From the IMG/VR virus record IMGVR_UViG_3300023171_000008, positions 38,558 to 102,557 of that record: 64,000 nucleotides of DNA; one strand, written 5' to 3'. Below, piece by piece: positions 53,790 through 63,991 of this stretch (position 1 is the first letter of the stretch; every line of letters starts with the position of its first letter). Below the pieces are notes generated by a model that saw only the letters and a program-made list of their open reading frames with translations, made no database searches and was not told the DNA's origin. The stretch is from a virus. A program made the translations under genes and the position numbers.

Positions 53790-54017
53790 ATGATTATAAA
53801 AAATATCACGTTTTTAACAACTTGTCATGAAAGTTTAGCAGGATGTCTTAATAAAAGAAATGAACATAAATTATTAGAAATTAAAGTTAAAATTCCTTTA
53901 GATAAAAGAGATTTGTTAAGTAATAATTATTATGATTTAACTAAATATCTTGAAATATTAACAGGATTTTTTGTTATTAAATTTTTAAAAATAAATAATA
54001 AATGCATAAAAGATTAA
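53790..54017 (+). CDS. Small unknown protein (75 aa)
   Basis: Basic, beta-rich, with a Cys at residues 10 and 17 (TTCHESLAGC). Overlaps the GGCT-like gene by 16 bases. Opens the amidoligase cassette. No recognised domain. Confidence 0.55.
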   Translation: MIIKNITFLTTCHESLAGCLNKRNEHKLLEIKVKIPLDKRDLLSNNYYDLTKYLEILTGFFVIKFLKINNKCIKD

Positions 54018-54406
54018 TTTCAGTATACGGAACACTCCGTTTAGGTGGTAGCAATAACTATTTACTTAAAGATAGTAAGTTTATAGGAGAATTTAAAACA
54101 GAACCTATATTTGATTTATATAGTTTAGGAGGATTTCCTGGACTTAAATTAAATGGAGATACTTCAGTTACTATGGAAGTATATGAAGTAGATGAACAAA
54201 CTGCTAAAAGAGTAGATCAATTAGAAGGTTATAAAGAAGGAGTTGAACCATATTTTTATGATAAAATTAAATTAGAAACTCCTTATGGTGAAAGTTCTGT
54301 TTATATTTACATAAATGGAGTTCAATATCATAACAAAATAAAATCAGGAGACTGGATAGATTATGTCAAGAAGTCGAAAAAGGAAACATCAGAAGTTTAC
54401 AATTAA
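54002..54406 (+). CDS. Gamma-glutamylcyclotransferase-fold protein
   Basis: 134 aa GGCT/AIG2-like fold: the substrate loop Y-G-T-L-R at residues 9-13, the catalytic-Glu strand M-E-V-Y-E-V around Glu59, and L-E-G-Y at 74-77. The family cyclises or releases gamma-glutamyl groups as 5-oxoproline. In amidoligase cassettes it is thought to trim or recycle the added gamma-glutamyl-type peptide. Its end overlaps the start of the first glutamine amidotransferase gene. Confidence 0.85.
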   Translation: MHKRLISVYGTLRLGGSNNYLLKDSKFIGEFKTEPIFDLYSLGGFPGLKLNGDTSVTMEVYEVDEQTAKRVDQLEGYKEGVEPYFYDKIKLETPYGESSVYIYINGVQYHNKIKSGDWIDYVKKSKKETSEVYN

Positions 54407-55175
54407 TCATGTAAATAAAGTAGTAAAAGAAGATAAAAGAATTAACGAAAATTATAAAGAATATAAAAAAATGAATAAAGTCAAGAAAATTGGAATTGTA
54501 GGTAATTGGACAGGAGCAAATAGTTTTGGTATAACTAAACCCTATATGTTCTTTTGGAGTCATTTTGGTGAAGTATCTATTATATCTCCAATGGAAAAAC
54601 ATGTTAGAGATTTAGATTTATTAGTAATTCCAGGTGGTCCTGATGTTGATGTATTTAGATATTTACGTGAAGAAGATGATATTGATTTAAATACTGGTGC
54701 ACCATGTTATCAACGTGAACGATTTGATAAAATGTTGTTACCTAAATATATTGCTAAAGGTACTCCTATATTTGGTACTTGTAGAGGTTTGCAAACTATT
54801 GCAGTTACACTAGGTGCTAGACTTAAGCAACATATGCATCATGAAACCAATGGTGATAATAGACATGCTTTAGTACATGGCATTACATTTGACAATGTAG
54901 AAGTTGTGCCAGGATTAGAAGAAATGATTAATCATCCTGATAATAAAGATTATAAAGTTAATAGTTTACATCATCAAACTGTATTAGAAGAAACTTTACC
55001 TTTAGAAGCTACAGTATTAGCTAGACATAGTAAAGATAATGAAGTTGAAGCTATCACATATTGGCCTCATTATCCTATACATACACAACAATATCATTGT
55101 GAAGAGATTTACGATCCTTTCTCATACACATTAATTTCACATTTATTATCATTATCAGATGAAAAAGAAATATAA
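54363..55175 (+). CDS. Class I glutamine amidotransferase (first)
   Basis: 270 aa, C26-type. Nucleophile Cys140 in G-T-C-R-G, then His245 in QYHCE with Glu247. The catalytic domain starts around residue 37 (MNKVKKIGIVGNWTG), so a start at 54471 is possible; the upstream frame would add a basic SRSRKRKHQK tail. It releases ammonia from glutamine or cuts gamma-glutamyl peptides. Located between the GGCT-like and ATP-grasp genes (17-base overlap with the latter). Confidence 0.85.
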   Translation: MSRSRKRKHQKFTINHVNKVVKEDKRINENYKEYKKMNKVKKIGIVGNWTGANSFGITKPYMFFWSHFGEVSIISPMEKHVRDLDLLVIPGGPDVDVFRYLREEDDIDLNTGAPCYQRERFDKMLLPKYIAKGTPIFGTCRGLQTIAVTLGARLKQHMHHETNGDNRHALVHGITFDNVEVVPGLEEMINHPDNKDYKVNSLHHQTVLEETLPLEATVLARHSKDNEVEAITYWPHYPIHTQQYHCEEIYDPFSYTLISHLLSLSDEKEI

Positions 55176-56001
55176 TTTATTTAGACCATTTATCCTTAGT
55201 AGACATCCAAGCCATTCAATATTAAGAGCTGTTAATAAGACTTTACCATTATTACCATTTAAATCTGTAGTTAGATTAGGTTCAACCACAGTATTAGCAG
55301 ATGATAATGAAAGAGTTCAAATTAATACACCCCAATCAGTTAAAAATTCAGCATCCAAATTATTGATGAAACAATGTTTTACTAATGCTGGAGTTAAAAC
55401 TGCAAAATGGTGGACTTGGGGAGAAGGTAATATATTTTCATTAAATGGTGATGATAATATAGATATGACTTTAATTAATCATTTACCATATCCATTAGTA
55501 GCTAAATCTCTCTATGGATCAAGAGGAATTGGAAATACTAAATTTAATAATCAAGGTGAGTTAGAGAAGTGGTTAATTGGTAAAAACTTGAATAACTATA
55601 TATTTGAAGAGTTTGTAAAAATGACTCGTGAATATAGACTTCATGTAACTGACGATGGTTGTTTCTATACTTGTAGAAAGTTAGTTAAAAATGACGCACC
55701 AGAAGATACTTGGCAAAAACATGATGATGTATGTAATTGGATATTAGAAGATAATCCTTCGTTTAAAAAACCTAATAATTGGAATGATATAGTAGCTGAT
55801 TGTATTAAAGCTAAAAATGCTTTAGGATTAGATATATGTGCATTTGATGTGGCAATACAAGGTAGTAAAAATGGTGTTGAACGTGAAAATCCAGAATGGA
55901 ACATATTCGAGTCATGTTCAGCTCCTAGTTTCGGTAAGATTACTGGAGAAAAATATATTCAAGAATTAACAAAATTAATAATTAAAAAAGCAAATAATTA
56001 A
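55159..56001 (+). CDS. ATP-grasp amide ligase (RimK-like)
   Basis: 280 aa. The ATP-grasp central region has L-V-A-K-S-L-Y-G-S-R-G-I-G (residues about 113-125), binding ATP phosphate. Y-I-F-E-E-F-V and A-F-D-V-A with a late E-S-C-S-A-P-S supply the metal-binding acidic/Asn loop. These enzymes join a carboxylate to an amine through an acyl phosphate. In this cassette it would add amino acids to a substrate whose identity is unknown. Confidence 0.85.
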   Translation: MKKKYNLFRPFILSRHPSHSILRAVNKTLPLLPFKSVVRLGSTTVLADDNERVQINTPQSVKNSASKLLMKQCFTNAGVKTAKWWTWGEGNIFSLNGDDNIDMTLINHLPYPLVAKSLYGSRGIGNTKFNNQGELEKWLIGKNLNNYIFEEFVKMTREYRLHVTDDGCFYTCRKLVKNDAPEDTWQKHDDVCNWILEDNPSFKKPNNWNDIVADCIKAKNALGLDICAFDVAIQGSKNGVERENPEWNIFESCSAPSFGKITGEKYIQELTKLIIKKANN

Positions 56002-56002
56002 T

Positions 56003-57214
56003 ATGTATTACGAAGATTGGTTAGATAAATTAGCAGTACAAGGATTTACAACAATAGATGAAATAGTTCATTATATAGAAGATCCAGATAAAACACCTGA
56101 AGAAATATATGAAACTATTCCTAATGAAAGTATAGATGAAAAAGCAGATTATTTATTAAGTTATTTTAGAGATAGTGAAATGCAATGGCCTGTAGAAGAA
56201 TCTAAAGTTGTTGAAAAACAAAAATTAAGACTTGTTATTGCAGATAATAGTAGTTCTAAAGAATATGTAAACTTTTTATCTGAAATATACGATGTAACTG
56301 TGGTTAAACATGGTGATGAAGCAGATTTAGTATTATTTACTGGTGGAGAAGATGTATATCCTAAATATTATGCTGAAAATACTGGTAAATTTACTTCATA
56401 TAATGAACGTAGAGATAAGTTAGAACAAAACGTTTATAGTATGTATCGATATACACCTAAGCTTGGAATATGTCGTGGAAATCAATTCTTAGCAGTAATG
56501 AAAGGTGGTAAATTAATACAACATGTTAGTGGTCATGGTCAATCACATTATATTACTACTAATAGTGGTATGAACATCGAAGTAACTTCTACACATCATC
56601 AGATGGTTTATCCTTTTGATTTACCTCAAGATAGATACGAATTAATTGGTTGGTCTAAAAACTTTAGAAGTGGTACATATCTTAATGGAAATAATGAAGA
56701 AATTGATTTACATCGAGATTTCTTAGAAGTTGAAATTATTAAATGGGGTAATGATGCATTAGGTATTCAAGGACATCCAGAATATAGTTCAGCTTCACCA
56801 CAGTTTAAGAAATACGCTTTACAACTTATTCAAAAGTTAATTGGAGAATATGGTGAAAAGTCTCTTTCAAGTAAGTATACTACTAGATCAATCCAAGCAC
56901 CAAAATCTTTAGGTTGGTATGATAATATGGGTGTTCAGATTAAAGACAGTGGTTTACGTTTTATTGATACTCCAACATACGGACAAGATTTCTATTCAAC
57001 TAAAGGTAGTATAGAAGCCTTATCTGGCAAACAACCCAATATTCAAATGAAAGAAGAAGTTGGATTTGATGTAAATCAATTTAATAACTTCTATAAACAA
57101 GAATTAGAAAAACAAATCATTGAATCAAAAGAAAATTCTCTTCCCACTTATAATGCTTTTAATATAGAAAATTTGGAAAATGTATTAAATGATTTATCAA
57201 AAAATAAAAAATAA
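56003..57214 (+). CDS. Class I glutamine amidotransferase (second, with extensions)
   Basis: 403 aa. Residues 1-75 are an acidic helical extension. The amidotransferase core has Cys157 in G-I-C-R-G and His258/Glu260 in Q-G-H-P-E. A C-terminal region (residues about 285-403) carries a YGQDFYSTKG segment and a coiled helical tail. It is distinct from the first class I enzyme, so two different glutaminase steps are likely. The start follows the ATP-grasp gene by one base. Confidence 0.85.
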   Translation: MYYEDWLDKLAVQGFTTIDEIVHYIEDPDKTPEEIYETIPNESIDEKADYLLSYFRDSEMQWPVEESKVVEKQKLRLVIADNSSSKEYVNFLSEIYDVTVVKHGDEADLVLFTGGEDVYPKYYAENTGKFTSYNERRDKLEQNVYSMYRYTPKLGICRGNQFLAVMKGGKLIQHVSGHGQSHYITTNSGMNIEVTSTHHQMVYPFDLPQDRYELIGWSKNFRSGTYLNGNNEEIDLHRDFLEVEIIKWGNDALGIQGHPEYSSASPQFKKYALQLIQKLIGEYGEKSLSSKYTTRSIQAPKSLGWYDNMGVQIKDSGLRFIDTPTYGQDFYSTKGSIEALSGKQPNIQMKEEVGFDVNQFNNFYKQELEKQIIESKENSLPTYNAFNIENLENVLNDLSKNKK

Positions 57215-57222
57215 TCAAATAA

Positions 57223-57633
57223 ATGAATAAATATAAAATAACAATAGGTTCTGATCCAGAAGTATTTATAGAAAATGAACAAGGTCAAGTAGTATCGGCA
57301 ATAGGATTAGTTCCAGGTACTAAACATGAACCACATCCAATAGACGATAAAGGTCATTTTATACAAACTGATAATATTGCATTAGAATATAATATTCCAC
57401 CATGTGATAATGAAGATGATTTTGTACATCATATACAGTTTGTTAAAGATTATTTAGAAGTTATTGCTGTTGCTAATGGTTATAAATTATCTACTAAAGC
57501 ATCTGAAGAAGTTGATTCTGTTTATTTACAAGATGATCAAGCTCGTATTTTTGGTTGTGAACCCTCACTTAATCCTTACACAAGATCAGTTAACGAGTCA
57601 CCAAATGCAAATACAAATTTAAGATGTGTTGGT
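57223..57633 (+). CDS. phiEco32-type COOH-NH2 ligase, exon 1
   Basis: Exon 1 (137 codons) begins MNKYKITIGSDPEVFIENEQ, the ATP-binding signature of the phiEco32-like COOH-NH2 ligase (glutamine synthetase-like fold), and ends CGCEPSLNPYT...NLRCVG. The coding phase ends cleanly at base 57633. Joined to 58654-59049 it gives a 268-aa protein with the family length. Without splicing translation stops at TAG 57646-57648 after five foreign residues. It lies eight bases after the second class I amidotransferase. Confidence 0.85.
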
Positions 57634-57706
57634 AGAATATCTGCCTAGATATATAGAAATATATATCTGTAATTGGACAAAAACGGTGAATAAAAATTCA
57701 TAATTA

Positions 57707-57738
57707 TTAGGAAATGTCATAAATTTTTCATATATTTG
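57707..57738 (+). promoter_or_regulatory. Intron-internal promoter for the LAGLIDADG gene
   Basis: TTAG at 57707-57710, 20 bases, TATATTTG at 57731-57738. The -7 box matches TAnnTTTG exactly and the -33 box has one mismatch. The endonuclease start lies 19 bases downstream, so it can be expressed without the host ligase transcript. Confidence 0.65.
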
Positions 57739-57757
57739 TATATATAAAATATAATTT

Positions 57758-58471
57758 ATGATTGACAATTATTTTGATAAAATTGATTCTGATATTAAAG
57801 CTTATTTATTAGGCTTTTTTATTGCAGATGGTTGTATTAGCAAAAATAGTAGATGTACTAATAGTTATCGTTTTTCAATTAATATTTCTGATATAGATAG
57901 AGAAATTTTAGAAATTTATAAAAGTGAATTAATGACAAATAATAAAATTGTTACTTCACATTATAAAAAAGGAGCTATAAATAGAAAACCAGTATCATGT
58001 TTAAGATGGACTTCTGGTTATATGTTTGAAATGTTTAAAGTAAAATATAATATTAATCCTAATAAAACAAAGGATTTTAACTTTACTTTTAATTTTGAAT
58101 TAATAGATGAAGAATATTATTTTTCTTTTATAAGAGGATTTTTTGATGGAGATGGTCATATATCATATACTGACACTAATCAATTTACTTTCGCATTTTA
58201 TGCAACTTCTAAACCTTTTTTAGAACAAATTGGTAAAATATTTGAAAAAGAGTTTGATATAGAATATTTAATTAAGGGAACTATTAAAACAAATATAGAA
58301 TTATTTTGTTTAAGATTTAATTGTAACCAGAAAAGAAAATATTTTATAAAAAAATTATATGATAAATTTTACAGTAATTCTAAATTTTCTTTATTAAGAA
58401 AAAAATTAAAATTTGAAAAATATTTAAATACCGTGCTAAATTCTAATGGTAAAAAATTAGAATCAGTGTAA
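57758..58471 (+). CDS. LAGLIDADG homing endonuclease
   Basis: 237 aa with two LAGLIDADG helices: L-L-G-F-F-I-A-D-G-C (about residues 18-27) and F-I-R-G-F-F-D-G-D-G (about residues 123-132), the latter Asp residues being the metal-binding acids. Two motifs mean a monomeric, double-domain enzyme. Should cut the intron-less ligase gene and promote intron homing. The gene is very AT-rich, and such double-motif enzymes are rarer in phages than GIY-YIG or HNH types. Confidence 0.92.
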   Translation: MIDNYFDKIDSDIKAYLLGFFIADGCISKNSRCTNSYRFSINISDIDREILEIYKSELMTNNKIVTSHYKKGAINRKPVSCLRWTSGYMFEMFKVKYNINPNKTKDFNFTFNFELIDEEYYFSFIRGFFDGDGHISYTDTNQFTFAFYATSKPFLEQIGKIFEKEFDIEYLIKGTIKTNIELFCLRFNCNQKRKYFIKKLYDKFYSNSKFSLLRKKLKFEKYLNTVLNSNGKKLESV

Positions 58472-58653
58472 CGCATAGGAGTTGATCCATAATTTAAGAG
58501 TCTTAGTGACTCTTTTTTTATGACTAAAATATTCCCACGAGTGTCCGACATCTGACTGTCTGCGAGATAAAAGATGAAAATATATGCTGAACTATAATGA
58601 ATGAATATAATTATAGAATCTAGGGATAAAAAGCCTTAGAGATAACAAAATTG

Positions 58654-59049
58654 GGACACATACATATCGGATATCCAGAAGCTAATCAAGAAACTTCTGA
58701 GAAAATTGTAAAAATGTTTGATATATTTGTAACACTTCCTGCTTTATTAATAGATAAAGATGATAGAAGACGTGAACTTTATGGAAAAGCAGGTGAATTT
58801 CGCTTCAAAGAACCTTGGGGATGTGAAGCAAGAGCTTTAAGTAACTTTTGGATACATTCTGAAGAAAATATTCGTTGGGTTTATAAACAAACTATAAAAG
58901 CTGTAGAATGTGTATTAGATGGTAATGCTGATGCATTATTTGATAAATATTCAGAACAAGTAGTTGAAGCAATTAATACTAATAATAAAGTATTAACTGA
59001 ATCATTATTATCTGAAATATTTGCTGGAGAAGAAGTATTAATAAACTAA
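58654..59049 (+). CDS. phiEco32-type COOH-NH2 ligase, exon 2
   Basis: 131 codons plus stop beginning G-H-I-H-I-G-Y, the metal/ATP-binding motif of this ligase family, then K-D-D-R-R-R-E-L-Y-G and C-E-A-R-A-L-S. The phase matches exon 1 exactly. The function is ATP-dependent joining of a carboxylate to an amine, proposed for peptide or protein modification. It precedes the class II amidotransferase by 11 bases. Confidence 0.85.
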   Translation, partial: GHIHIGYPEANQETSEKIVKMFDIFVTLPALLIDKDDRRRELYGKAGEFRFKEPWGCEARALSNFWIHSEENIRWVYKQTIKAVECVLDGNADALFDKYSEQVVEAINTNNKVLTESLLSEIFAGEEVLIN

Positions 59050-59060
59050 AAAATAAATAA

Positions 59061-61001
59061 ATGATAATACTGATAGTATTAATCCTAGGTATATTACAAA
59101 TTCTATTAAATTTAATATTTAAACCTAATTATAATACATTAAATTGTGGTATATGGGGTCAAGCGAGTAATTCCACTAAAAAGATTAATGAATCTAATAT
59201 AAAAATATTAGGTTTGTTTAATGAATCTAGAGGTAAGAATTCTTGTGGTATAACTATAGATGGAGAGATTTATTATGGTTTAGATAAGGAAGCTTTATTT
59301 ACTAATTTTGCTAAGGGTAGGTCTATAAAGCCTACATTATATCCTACAGTAATTGGTCATACAAGACAGTCTAGTATAGGTGTGATTAATTCTTATAATG
59401 CACATCCATTTGGATTTGGAGAGAATAAAGATGGAGGTTATAAAATGTGTATCGTACATAATGGTACTTTATTAAATCATAAAGAATTAGCTGATAAATA
59501 TGAAGTATCTAAAGATATAGATTCTCCAAGTTTACATGTAGAGAATTTTAATGTTGTACGTACTAAAATTGATAGTGAAATACTAGGAGAAATTATATAT
59601 AAGACTGGTAATATCAAAGTATTAAGTGATTATAATGGTGCTGCCGCATTAGTATGGACTGATACAGATCATCCTAATGTAATTTATTTATGGAGTGGTA
59701 AAAGTCGTGCATGGTCAGATGATGCTGAAGATAAACAAGTTGAAGAACGTCCAATGTTTGTTTATATTGAAAGTAAGAATAATTTCTATTTTTCATCATT
59801 AGCAGAACCTTTACATGTTATTAGAAATAATAATGGTGAAATATTTCAAATAGATTATAATACTGTTTATACTGTTAAAGATGGTAATTTTAAAGAAGCT
59901 AAAAAGTTATTAGTTAGTAGAAAAGATAATTACCAAAGAGAAATTGTTAAATATACATCTTATACTGGAGGTTATAATTATGGTGATGATTGGGAAGATA
60001 GTCGGTGGCTTCAGAAGCCTAAAACTTCTGGTCAAACGGTTATTAATCTTCCTGCAGCTAAAGAAGAAGTAATTAATATATTTGACGATACTACTTTAAA
60101 AACTCAAAATGAGTATAAAGGTAAAGTTGTTAATAAAAAATTACGTTATTATAGAAATAATCATTTAATTAATGGTGTTTATACTAACATTATTAACTTT
60201 GATTTCTTTTATCTTGGAGATATTATTAAAGAAGCTAAAGCTCATTTTGGTACATTAGTTAATAAACCTTTTAATTATAGTACTGGAGAATTTGGTGATA
60301 TTGAAGATAAAGATTTATTTGAAACTCCATTTAAACATGACGCTCCTACATTATTTTATTTTGTAGAAGGTATAATGTTAAGAACAGAGCTTGATTATTT
60401 AACGGCATTAGCACCATTTAATATATTTAAAAATGGAGATAAATGGGATTATGAAAAGTTATCTCATGCATCAATGTTGCCAGTAGTAGATTTGACTTCT
60501 AAACCTTCAGATAGTAAACAAATGATATTAAAACATGGTGTAGAGTATAACGGTATTGTAACTGGATTAAACTTTGAGAAAAGATATGAAATTAGTAAAG
60601 GTAACTTAATTAAAATACTTCCATTAACGGCTGTAAACACTAATAGTGTAGTTAAATTAGCTAATAATGTTCATAGACCTATTATACTTAAAGAGTGTAT
60701 TAATTTTATCACTAATCTTGAGGAAAATATTGAAATTGAAGAAGTTGAAGAAGGTACTATTAAACAATTAGAACAAGACGATAAAGAATTCTTAGATAGT
60801 TTAAATGATAATATTGATAATATTGATTATGTAGCTGATGCAGTTGACGGTATATTAAATGATTGCTTAACTGGACCTTTAATTAAATTTCAAGATTATA
60901 AAGTTAAATTGAGTTATTATTTACCTCATGTAGAAGCTGTTAAAGCTCTTAAAGTTCTTGAAGATATGGAAAATGTAGTTGGTGAATTTATAAAAAACTA
61001 A
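59061..61001 (+). CDS. Class II glutamine amidotransferase with hydrophobic propeptide
   Basis: 646 aa. The class II N-terminal nucleophile motif C-G-I-W-G occurs at Cys29, not at residue 2, after a membrane-like segment (residues 2-20). No start codon lies directly before Cys29, so autocatalytic removal of a 28-residue propeptide, as in PurF or GltB, is needed for activity. Downstream motifs G-H-T-R-Q-S-S and H-N-G-T-L fit the family. The C-terminal 400 residues are acidic and of unknown function. It donates ammonia, probably to the amidoligases. Confidence 0.8.
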   Translation: MIILIVLILGILQILLNLIFKPNYNTLNCGIWGQASNSTKKINESNIKILGLFNESRGKNSCGITIDGEIYYGLDKEALFTNFAKGRSIKPTLYPTVIGHTRQSSIGVINSYNAHPFGFGENKDGGYKMCIVHNGTLLNHKELADKYEVSKDIDSPSLHVENFNVVRTKIDSEILGEIIYKTGNIKVLSDYNGAAALVWTDTDHPNVIYLWSGKSRAWSDDAEDKQVEERPMFVYIESKNNFYFSSLAEPLHVIRNNNGEIFQIDYNTVYTVKDGNFKEAKKLLVSRKDNYQREIVKYTSYTGGYNYGDDWEDSRWLQKPKTSGQTVINLPAAKEEVINIFDDTTLKTQNEYKGKVVNKKLRYYRNNHLINGVYTNIINFDFFYLGDIIKEAKAHFGTLVNKPFNYSTGEFGDIEDKDLFETPFKHDAPTLFYFVEGIMLRTELDYLTALAPFNIFKNGDKWDYEKLSHASMLPVVDLTSKPSDSKQMILKHGVEYNGIVTGLNFEKRYEISKGNLIKILPLTAVNTNSVVKLANNVHRPIILKECINFITNLEENIEIEEVEEGTIKQLEQDDKEFLDSLNDNIDNIDYVADAVDGILNDCLTGPLIKFQDYKVKLSYYLPHVEAVKALKVLEDMENVVGEFIKN

Positions 61002-61002
61002 A

Positions 61003-62121
61003 ATGAGTAAAGAAAAAATAGTAACAACAATAAACAATGAGGAATTACCTATTACACAATGTAGAAGATTTGAAACTCTATATTATAAAATAGGTGATAT
61101 AAATGTTGAAAATTCAGGAGAATGTTATTTTGTAAGTAATAAATATTATAGATTTGAAACAGGTCAAATAGTATGGGATTATGAAAAACAACAATATGTT
61201 TTAAAAAACGATAATTTAATTAATGGTATTGTTAAACTTAATGAAAGCGATATTCAATTAGGTTACTTTACTAAAAGTGAAGATAATATACCTACTATAA
61301 CTCCTAATGGTACATATATGTCTTTAAATGAAGAAGTGTTTAAAGATAGTAAACTTTATCGTGAAAGATTATCTAATGGTCAATATTATCATATTGATTT
61401 ATTATCAGCTAAGGAATTTAATAGACTTAAAATTACAGATCAAGGATATAAACAGTCGTTACCTTATGACTCAAAGGGAATATTAGGACAATATCTTGAG
61501 AAATATAATAAGTTAGAAGTTGAACCTGGATATTATATTAATAATTATTCTAAGTTAATTGATAACTTATCATTTGGTCTTGAATTTGAAACATCTTCAG
61601 GTTTTATACCTAATAGATTATTAAATAAAGTAGGATTAATTCCACTTAGAGATGGTAGTATAACAGGTATAGAATACGTTACTGTACCTATGCAAGGTAG
61701 TAAAGGATTACAGACAGTTATTAATGCAGTAGATCTTCTTAAAAAGAGAACTGAGTATAATGATTCATGTAGTTTACATTTGCATATTGGTAATGTGCCT
61801 AGAACTAAAGAATTTATATTAGCATTTTTTAAAGTTACATGTGCATTACAAGATGAAATATTTAATATGTTTCCAATCTATAAGAAGTATAATTTTGGTG
61901 TTAAGAATAAAAACTATTCTAGACCTTATCCTACTTATGAGTTGTTATCTCAAATGGATCCTATAATTACTAGAAATAATTTAGATAGTAATTTTGATGT
62001 ATTATTTAAATACTTATCTATGGATTTAATGAACTTAAATTCTATTGGGAATGATTTAGATAATATCGAAGGACATCCTGCAGATTTACAAGGTAATCAG
62101 AAATGGAATATTAAAACACGT
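61003..62121 (+). CDS. Amidoligase (GS-fold), exon 1
   Basis: 373 codons ending K-T-R. The catalytic core carries G-L-E-F-E-T (Glu194, Glu196), G-I-E-Y-V-T (about Glu224) and C-S-L-H-L-H-I-G (His259, His261), the signatures of the putative amidoligase family with a glutamine-synthetase-like fold. Unspliced, TGA follows at 62122-62124. It begins one base after the class II amidotransferase. The enzyme should attach an amine to a carboxylate, with ammonia or amino acids supplied by its neighbours. Confidence 0.85.
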
Positions 62122-62197
62122 TGAGTAAAAATAGCGTAGCTATAAAGTAATTTATAGTAAAAAATATTGGGTGAATTCAAAGAAAGTCTTAATAAAA

Positions 62198-62229
62198 TTT
62201 GTTTTTGTTGTAAAAATTTATTATATTTG
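62198..62229 (+). promoter_or_regulatory. Intron-internal promoter for the HNH gene
   Basis: TTTG at 62198-62201, exactly 20 bases, TATATTTG at 62222-62229: a full match to the Bacteroidota consensus in both boxes. The HNH start is 17 bases downstream. Confidence 0.8.
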
Positions 62230-62246
62230 TATATAATAATATTTAT

Positions 62247-62867
62247 ATGAAACAAGAAAAAGAATACTTAGAAGCAAATAAAAAACAATCAGTTAATTTA
62301 GTAGATTATCCTTATAAAAAAGGAGATAAAGTAGGTAATTTTATAGTAAATTCTGATAATTATGTTTATCATCATAAAAGATATCAAGTTGAATTAACTT
62401 GTGAATGTGGTAAAATAGTTTACAGAAGATTAAATAATATACTAAAATTAAAAAATATTTGGTGTTCAAAATGTAAAGGATATAATTTATATCCAGAAAG
62501 AAGAAAGTCTAGTGCATGGTTTACTAACGGTATTCACATACTTTGGTATAACGAAATAACTAGCAACTTACATAGAGGAAACAGAATAATAGATTGTAAA
62601 ATCAATATAGAAGATCTAAAAACTTTATATGACGATCAAAAAGGAATTTGTCCATATACAGGTATTTATTTAAATGTTTTAGATTTATTAAAAAAAGAAT
62701 CTAATGCTTCTATTGATAGAACAGATTCTTCAAAAGGTTATACTATGGATAATATTAAATGGGTTTATAAGCCTTTAAATATTATGAAAAATAGATATTC
62801 ATTAGAGGAATTTTTATTTGTTTGTAAAAAAGTTACAAATTTTACAGATAACTTTGAGCCAAGCTAA
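62247..62867 (+). CDS. HNH homing endonuclease
   Basis: 206 aa. The N-terminal C-E-C-G...C-S-K-C is a zinc ribbon for DNA binding. The HNH core reads C-P-Y-T-G-I-Y-L then A-S-I-D-R-T-D-S-S-K-G-Y-T-M-D-N-I-K-W-V and a final N-x-M-K-N, the layout of intron-encoded HNH enzymes of phages. Should target the intron-less amidoligase gene. Placed similarly within its intron as the LAGLIDADG gene in the other. Confidence 0.92.
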   Translation: MKQEKEYLEANKKQSVNLVDYPYKKGDKVGNFIVNSDNYVYHHKRYQVELTCECGKIVYRRLNNILKLKNIWCSKCKGYNLYPERRKSSAWFTNGIHILWYNEITSNLHRGNRIIDCKINIEDLKTLYDDQKGICPYTGIYLNVLDLLKKESNASIDRTDSSKGYTMDNIKWVYKPLNIMKNRYSLEEFLFVCKKVTNFTDNFEPS

Positions 62868-63026
62868 CTAGGGATAGTTAGAAGGTGCAACGACTAGTAC
62901 ATGGAGTCTAGAACAGACAGTAAAGTACCACGAGCGCCCAACATCCTTGCGAAGGATGATGACATAGTCTGAACTATATAGAAATATATAGAAGATAGGA
63001 TAAAGAGCCTATCGATAACAAAATTG

Positions 63027-63578
63027 TATTATCATAATAACTTAATTCCGTTAATCTTTTGTAATAAAGCAACTATTGAATTCAGAGTACATACTTCTAC
63101 ATTTGATGTTAATAAGATTATTCCGTTTATATTTCTTAATTCATTTTTAATTAACTATACTATTCACAATCAAGAAGAAATATTAGCTAATCCTAAATTC
63201 TTAATTAAAAAAACTTTACAACATGTTATTGGTCATTGTACTAATGTAAATGATAACATTAAAGATCTAGGCTTATTAAGAGATTGTTTAAATATGTATG
63301 TTAACGAAAGAACTGTTTTTACTAGAAGTCAAAATGCTAATGGTAAGATAATGGGTGAAGAACATTTAATACCCTCATGTAGTTCTTACATTAACTGGAA
63401 TACTAAAGATCTTAAACCTAAAGCTTATGGTTTAGACGCTGATTTACAAGCTTATATTCAGAGAACAAAAGCTCAAATGAATTATGATCCCACAGTTAAT
63501 GTTAAAAAACCTGCAATGAAAGCTAAACCACAACCTAAACAACAGAATATTAATGCTGAAGATCATTTACCATGGTAA
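63027..63578 (+). CDS. Amidoligase, exon 2
   Basis: 183 codons plus stop, beginning Y-Y-H-N-N-L-I-P and soon carrying A-T-I-E-F-R-V-H-T, the C-terminal Glu/Arg catalytic signature. The end is a Lys/Pro-rich linker followed by an acidic tip (AEDHLPW). The full protein is 556 aa. Its stop overlaps the start of the glycosylase-like gene. Confidence 0.85.
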   Translation, partial: YYHNNLIPLIFCNKATIEFRVHTSTFDVNKIIPFIFLNSFLINYTIHNQEEILANPKFLIKKTLQHVIGHCTNVNDNIKDLGLLRDCLNMYVNERTVFTRSQNANGKIMGEEHLIPSCSSYINWNTKDLKPKAYGLDADLQAYIQRTKAQMNYDPTVNVKKPAMKAKPQPKQQNINAEDHLPW

Positions 63579-63991
63579 TTAAACATAAAGTAGAAGTTCA
63601 AACATTTGAAGATGAATTAAGTTGTAATTATGAAGACTTATTAGGTGAAAGCTGGTGTAAAGTTGACGATATAAAAACTTTACTTAAAAGTGATTATATG
63701 ACTCATTTAATGCATTATATAAATCAGCGTAGATTAAAGGATACTTGTACATATCCTAAAGAGCGTAGAGATATGTTTGCTGCATTTAGAGAAATAGAAT
63801 TTGATAAAGTTAAAGTAGTCATATTTAATGACTTTCCTAATGATGGTCATACAGCTAATGGTATAGGATTTGGTGAATATAAAAAACCAACTGCTTACAA
63901 TAGTATGTTAAAGACTGTTGAAGGATTAATTAATCAAATGCCTATTAGTGAAAGAAATGAGGAATTCGATTATACATTAAGTAGTTGGTGA
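63572..63991 (+). CDS. Uracil-DNA glycosylase-like protein, apparently frameshifted at its end
   Basis: 139 aa. T-C-T-Y-P-K-E-R-R-D-M-F-A-A-F then V-K-V-V-I-F-N-D-F-P-N-D-G-H-T-A-N-G-I-G-F correspond to family-1 UDG, where GQDPYH is here FNDFPN (Asp87 kept, Gln to Asn). TGA at 63989-63991 follows S-S-W. The +1 frame after the Trp codon reads E-Q-G-V, the UDG continuation, so the ORF appears out of frame. The rest lies beyond the window. May remove uracil from phage DNA. Confidence 0.65.
   Translation: MVIKHKVEVQTFEDELSCNYEDLLGESWCKVDDIKTLLKSDYMTHLMHYINQRRLKDTCTYPKERRDMFAAFREIEFDKVKVVIFNDFPNDGHTANGIGFGEYKKPTAYNSMLKTVEGLINQMPISERNEEFDYTLSSW

Follow-up and report, generated by a model that had tools for sequence, protein, structure and literature searches.

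A seven-gene 'peptidoglycan modification cassette' has been described in RIO-1-like podoviruses and also in phages phiEco32, 7-11, PA11, tf, LUZ24, PaP3 and CW02, and a role in the prevention of superinfection has been proposed for it (PMC5498523, which cites Hardies 2013 and Iyer). A study of an OM43 phage repeats the superinfection idea of Iyer 2009 (PMC10580990), and open reading frames (ORFs) 21-29 of the LUZ24-like phage UFV-P2 also carry the cassette (PMC3890496). Here we describe a cassette of this kind in a 64,000-nucleotide stretch of virus DNA (the window; G000:C1:38558-102557 of the 102,557-base record IMGVR_UViG_3300023171_000008), where seven enzyme genes fill positions 54002-63578, all on the + strand, between the genes for primase and uracil-DNA glycosylase (UDG). 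Both of its glutamine synthetase (GS)-type ligase genes are split by what we identify as two mobile group I introns that are unrelated to each other and each encode a homing endonuclease of their own, and its class II glutamine amidotransferase (GATase) carries a membrane-helix leader that is possibly a new feature. We propose that the enzymes form one linked amide-bond pathway whose likeliest substrate is a precursor of the host cell envelope, a reading to which we give a probability of about 0.45. The cassette itself is not new, being already published in podoviruses and annotated in Cellulophaga phage phi14:2.

The RIO-1-like cassette shares with the window two amidoligases and the ATP-grasp, gamma-glutamyl cyclotransferase (GGCT) and GATase genes, set amid genes of DNA metabolism. 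The window differs in belonging to a crAss-like phage, in having two class I enzymes and in carrying group I introns in both GS-type ligases; function is predicted in both systems. In phi14:2, a member of the Crassvirales, genes g037-g041 encode a GGCT, an ATP-grasp ligase, a COOH-NH2 ligase, a class II GATase and an amidoligase in the same order from primase to UDG, and the class II GATase there also has a membrane leader. The phi14:2 cassette, however, has neither class I enzymes nor introns, and protein identity to the window is 28-49%. UFV-P2 has the COOH-NH2 ligase, amidoligase, class II GATase, ATP-grasp and GGCT genes beside primase/helicase with an HNH gene within the cluster, but its gene order is different and the HNH gene is a separate one between the amidoligase and the GATase. 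In crAss-like phages, group I introns with endonuclease genes are known from other conserved genes (Yutin 2021, PMC7886860), and the window's introns resemble them in type, in their endonuclease genes and in the conservation of the genes that host them.

The cassette and its linkage

The record begins and ends with 138 bases that match each other at 98.6%, and the genome is therefore circular and complete at about 102.4 kb. Its terminase and portal fall into phage PHROG families, and the order of primase, cassette and UDG matches that of phi14:2; on these grounds, together with the circular genome of about 100 kb, we assign the window to a crAss-like phage. Pfam and PHROG searches identified a GGCT, two class I/C26 enzymes, a class II GATase and three ligases, of which two are GS-type amide ligases and the third is an ATP-grasp ligase; catalytic motifs are intact. 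The features are as follows.

54002-54406, +, GGCT / AIG2-like gamma-glutamylamine cyclotransferase, 134 residues (PF06094, E 2e-16; PHROG 2520)
54363-55175, +, class I GATase / Peptidase_C26 (GAT1a), 270 residues (PF07722, E 3e-24; PF00117 GATase, E 4e-11)
55159-56001, +, RimK-like ATP-grasp ligase, 280 residues (PHROG 2599, S6 glutaminyl transferase, E 3e-23)
56003-57214, +, second class I GATase / Peptidase_C26 (GAT1b), 403 residues (PF07722, E 9e-16; PF00117, E 5e-6; PHROG 7218, E 9e-30)
57223-57633, +, COOH-NH2 ligase (phiEco32-type) exon 1, residues 1-137 (PHROG 3815 positions 1-138; phi14:2 alignment)
57634-58653, +, predicted intron 1, group I type, 1020 nucleotides (exon alignment, homologous introns, consensus structure)
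57758-58471, +, LAGLIDADG homing endonuclease inside intron 1, 237 residues (PF14528, E 2e-16)
58654-59049, +, COOH-NH2 ligase exon 2, residues 138-268, starting GHIHIGY (PHROG 3815 positions 139-261; PF14395)
59061-61001, +, class II N-terminal nucleophile (Ntn) GATase, 646 residues (PF13522, E 7e-10)
61003-62121, +, Amidoligase_2 exon 1, residues 1-373 (PF12224, E 5e-5; PHROG 2443, E 2e-28)
62122-63026, +, predicted intron 2, group I, 905 nucleotides (RF00028 match; L049 homologue)
62247-62867, +, HNH / endonuclease VII-like homing endonuclease inside intron 2, 206 residues (PHROG 3322, E 2e-17; PHROG 1035, E 7e-13)
63027-63578, +, Amidoligase_2 exon 2, 183 residues, starting YYHNNLIPLIF...TIEFR (alignment to phi14:2 g041 residues after 380)

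The original prediction for this DNA had described eight consecutive genes at 54002-63578. The coordinates hold, while the enzymes number seven. Two of their genes are not continuous but split, and the two ORFs in between are endonucleases inside introns. Hidden Markov model searches supported every fold that it named, the ATP-grasp ligase through PHROG 2599 only, as the Pfam search gave no match for this protein. That observation was thus partly confirmed, and it had included neither the introns nor the membrane leader of the class II GATase.

This gene set recurs in unchanged order in dozens of independent contigs, which excludes chance. Linkage was measured in 59 contigs with enough flanking sequence, found by searching with the COOH-NH2 ligase alone. 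An amidoligase and a class II GATase each accompany it in 57 of the 59, an ATP-grasp protein in 56, a class I enzyme in 50 and a GGCT in 32; several gene orders occur among these contigs. The core enzymes are nearly inseparable, so the cassette looks like a defined pathway and not like a scatter of auxiliary genes. These counts support the linked, multi-step amide or peptide pathway of the original prediction, an idea that is not new, the set having been published (PMC5498523). The cassette is also widespread: the COOH-NH2 ligase occurs in 312 of 50,697 annotated phage records, chiefly of Pseudomonas and Escherichia phages. The E. coli phage KarlSchell_Bas89 carries the set and makes it tractable for knock-outs.

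Among the smaller enzymes, the GGCT has YtfP (1xhs) as its nearest solved relative and is 39% identical to its phi14:2 counterpart; the corresponding value for the ATP-grasp ligase is 49%. GAT1a has its Cys within GTCRG (138-142) and a His-x-Glu within YHCEE (244), and its PDB matches are 3fij, TrpG and PuuD; GAT1b has GICRG (155) and HPE (257). Both class I proteins score better to the C26 gamma-glutamyl hydrolases (PF07722) than to GATase (PF00117), and since their distant solved relatives include PuuD as well as TrpG, gamma-glutamyl hydrolysis is as likely for them as ammonia supply. Three separate glutaminase routes is therefore too strong a description. Two tandem GGCT genes are present in contigs L007 (3549-4381), L008, L009, L015 and others, and one in the window. 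In the Leptolyngbya phage Lbo-JY46 (L003, 1470-5679) the cassette adjoins genes for nicotinate phosphoribosyltransferase (PncB) and phosphoribosyl pyrophosphate synthetase.

At the downstream edge of the cassette, the UDG gene crosses the junction of the circular record (63572-63991 plus the record start, L005:2-433). A third intron, in UDG, was considered and rejected, as the stop at 63991 is false and arises from a 2-base glitch at the record end.

The leader of the class II GATase

Residues 1-28 of the class II GATase form a leader that is strongly hydrophobic at positions 2-20 (Kyte-Doolittle value 3.04) and lies directly before the catalytic Cys29 (leader and Cys29, 59061-59147). No start codon was found directly before Cys29 in the window. 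The cysteine is invariant across 43 class II relatives, 25 of which have such a leader, 22-48 residues long. Strong transmembrane segments were found in 28 of 98 class II GATases, compared with 0 or 1 in the other cassette proteins (one marginal COOH-NH2 ligase). At least 12 switches of state are needed on the class II GATase tree to account for gain and loss of the leader, a number that recombination could mimic. The AlphaFold model of the enzyme (predicted local distance difference test, pLDDT, 81.5) matches the Ntn GATases GlmS, PurF, AsnB and EgtC. Its well-modelled C-terminal domain (residues ~340-525, 60080-60640) has no counterpart among the PDB matches listed, which are without exception Ntn GATases.

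Ntn GATases require a free N-terminal Cys, and the leader must therefore come off or the enzyme is inactive. In PurF/GltB-type class II GATases propeptide residues likewise precede the nucleophile Cys and need removal; the window's leader differs in being a membrane helix, and sister enzymes start Met-Cys. The leader implies a membrane-tethered pro-enzyme and mildly favours an envelope target. More tentatively, the class II GATase of crAss-like cassettes may be a membrane-tethered zymogen, held at the inner membrane by its conserved transmembrane leader until cleavage exposes Cys29, so that the amide chemistry would take place on a membrane-bound envelope precursor. The leader is a concrete clue to where the pathway acts.

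Candidate substrates of the pathway

A host-envelope target is plausible, and the published prediction of peptidoglycan modification argues for it (PMC5498523). On this reading an early operon transcript would have to splice twice, once per ligase, and the ligases would build two or three successive amide bonds, probably gamma-glutamyl or isopeptide, on one substrate. At the membrane, ammonia would come from the class II GATase, whose nucleophile is preceded by an N-terminal membrane helix and which would be active only once the leader is removed, while the C26 enzymes and GGCT would trim or deprotect gamma-glutamyl groups. The substrate would be a peptidoglycan peptide or lipid-linked precursor of the host that is changed in the course of infection, one possible purpose being to keep out a second phage.

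Several observations weigh against this reading. The cassette lies among replication genes and not among envelope or lysis genes. Its hosts span Bacteroidetes, Pseudomonas, Escherichia and Vibrio, and one envelope target would need wide conservation to serve in all of them. Eighteen of the 43 class II GATases were scored leaderless, at least 16 of them starting exactly Met-Cys, and membrane anchoring is therefore not essential everywhere. We infer the splicing that both ligases depend on from sequence alone. Among the papers that could be reached, no enzyme assay or other experimental test of the cassette was found, nor any report of its product.

The alternative that survives best, although we consider it unlikely, is that the product of the pathway is soluble, a gamma-glutamyl peptide or a small molecule (an antimetabolite, or a thiol or polyamine conjugate), with a gamma-glutamyl protecting group added and later removed by GGCT and the C26 enzymes. 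Such a group is put on and later taken off in butirosin and putrescine metabolism. A soluble product would explain why makers of gamma-glutamyl bonds occur together with removers, namely the GGCT (PF06094) and two C26 enzymes with distant solved relatives including PuuD, and the class II Ntn domain also matches the gamma-glutamyl hydrolase EgtC, ranked after GlmS, PurF and AsnB. It leaves the membrane leader unexplained, however; genes for export, carrier proteins or tailoring were not seen next to the cassette, and the GGCT, present in 32 of the 59 cassettes, is missing from about half.

Less probable still is that the ligases tag a protein of host or phage (a ribosomal, RNA polymerase or virion protein, for example) with amino acids, as RimK does with ribosomal protein S6. 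The ATP-grasp protein matches the PHROG named ribosomal protein S6 glutaminyl transferase, and the early-gene position adjoining replication genes would suit this role. But that name comes from distant similarity, with no RimK match in Pfam, and one ligase would suffice where the cassette has three plus GATases.

Hypermodification of the phage's DNA bases, through addition of amino acids or amide groups, appears highly improbable. The cassette does lie between primase and UDG, near nucleotide enzymes; yet the phage thymidylate synthase homologue retains the canonical GLPYN motif, which weakly disfavours base hypermodification, and a PHROG scan of the neighbouring proteins, about half of which have no annotated function, recognised no gene for base hypermodification. 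The virion proteins and DNA bases put forward as targets in the original prediction found no support here, and a precursor of the host envelope is the substrate that we prefer.

Predicted introns in the two ligase genes

The two pieces of the COOH-NH2 ligase match PHROG 3815 with E-values of 4e-34 and 5e-35, and the second piece matches PF14395 above the cut-off (E 2e-7). When joined, the exons give a protein of 268 residues that is colinear with its phi14:2 counterpart. The joined amidoligase exons likewise give 556 residues colinear with phi14:2, at 38% identity, and exon 1 scores 23.8 bits to PF12224 against a cut-off of 22. Neither GS-type ligase profile found anything useful in PDB sequence searches, and the amidoligase model (7 sequences) has a mean pLDDT of 57, so the GS-type assignment rests on the Pfam and PHROG families. 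With both genes interrupted, neither ligase can be made without RNA self-splicing, and standard annotation breaks two key enzymes.

Intron 2 scores 45.3 bits (E 5e-10) to Rfam RF00028, just below the gathering score of 50, and its homologue at the same site in contig L049 scores 49.9 bits. Its P1, read from the sequence, is ACGU|UG...GCGU with a U.G pair at the splice site. Intron 1 gave no group I match in the Rfam search. Its P1, read in the same way, is GGU|AGA...UCUGCC with U.G at the 5' splice site, and both introns terminate in ...GATAACAAAATTG, with a terminal G. Homologues of intron 1 are present in L008, L034 and L068. Across the four homologues of this family 39 of 78 pairs show compensatory change, and 94.9% of cells are paired compared with at most 45% when partners are slid, in a consensus structure derived from the same four sequences on which pairing was scored. 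The P3-P9 core helices and the P7 pseudoknot are present in all four; P7 (GCAUA/UAUGC) is invariant and thus lies outside the covariation test. The LAGLIDADG endonuclease of intron 1 is 57% identical to that of the L008 intron and is related to I-MsaII of Staphylococcus phages.

Intron-free alleles at these sites are found in L011, L012 and phi14:2. Among 105 distinct contigs collected, further genes show interruptions with the hallmarks seen in the window: the COOH-NH2 ligase is interrupted in L008 (after residue 111) and, at the window's site, in L034 and L068; the amidoligase is interrupted at the window's site in L049, and class I enzymes are interrupted around the nucleophile Cys in L009/L102, L026, L036, L041 and L075. 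Homing introns usually sit in the most conserved motifs, and the insertion sites in these related cassettes are mostly within the most conserved, mainly catalytic ones. The L008 intron (L008:6525-7586) and intron 1 are relatives at two different sites of the COOH-NH2 ligase gene, both following ...TGGT, which suggests ectopic movement to a new site.

That the split ORFs are instead pseudogenes, frameshifts or inteins, as the assembly glitch at the record ends might hint, is extremely improbable. The exon joins are clean, the insertions contain in-frame stops as well as an endonuclease gene and show P1 pairing of the group I kind and an RNA structure with compensatory changes, and homologous insertions occupy the same sites in other contigs. 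Inteins were rejected specifically, as they would leave the frame open, whereas these insertions hold stops and shift it. The COOH-NH2 ligase of KarlSchell_Bas89 (L158, 6475-7786), annotated in two pieces with an HNH gene inside, was not counted as intron-split: its DNA reads through as one complete ORF, with a duplicated 5' end and an HNH gene alongside. The relatives of intron 1 at the window's COOH-NH2 ligase site, L068:7388-7661 (274 nucleotides) and L034:5294-5731 (438 nucleotides), are without an intact endonuclease gene, and the L034 intron contains an apparent endonuclease remnant.

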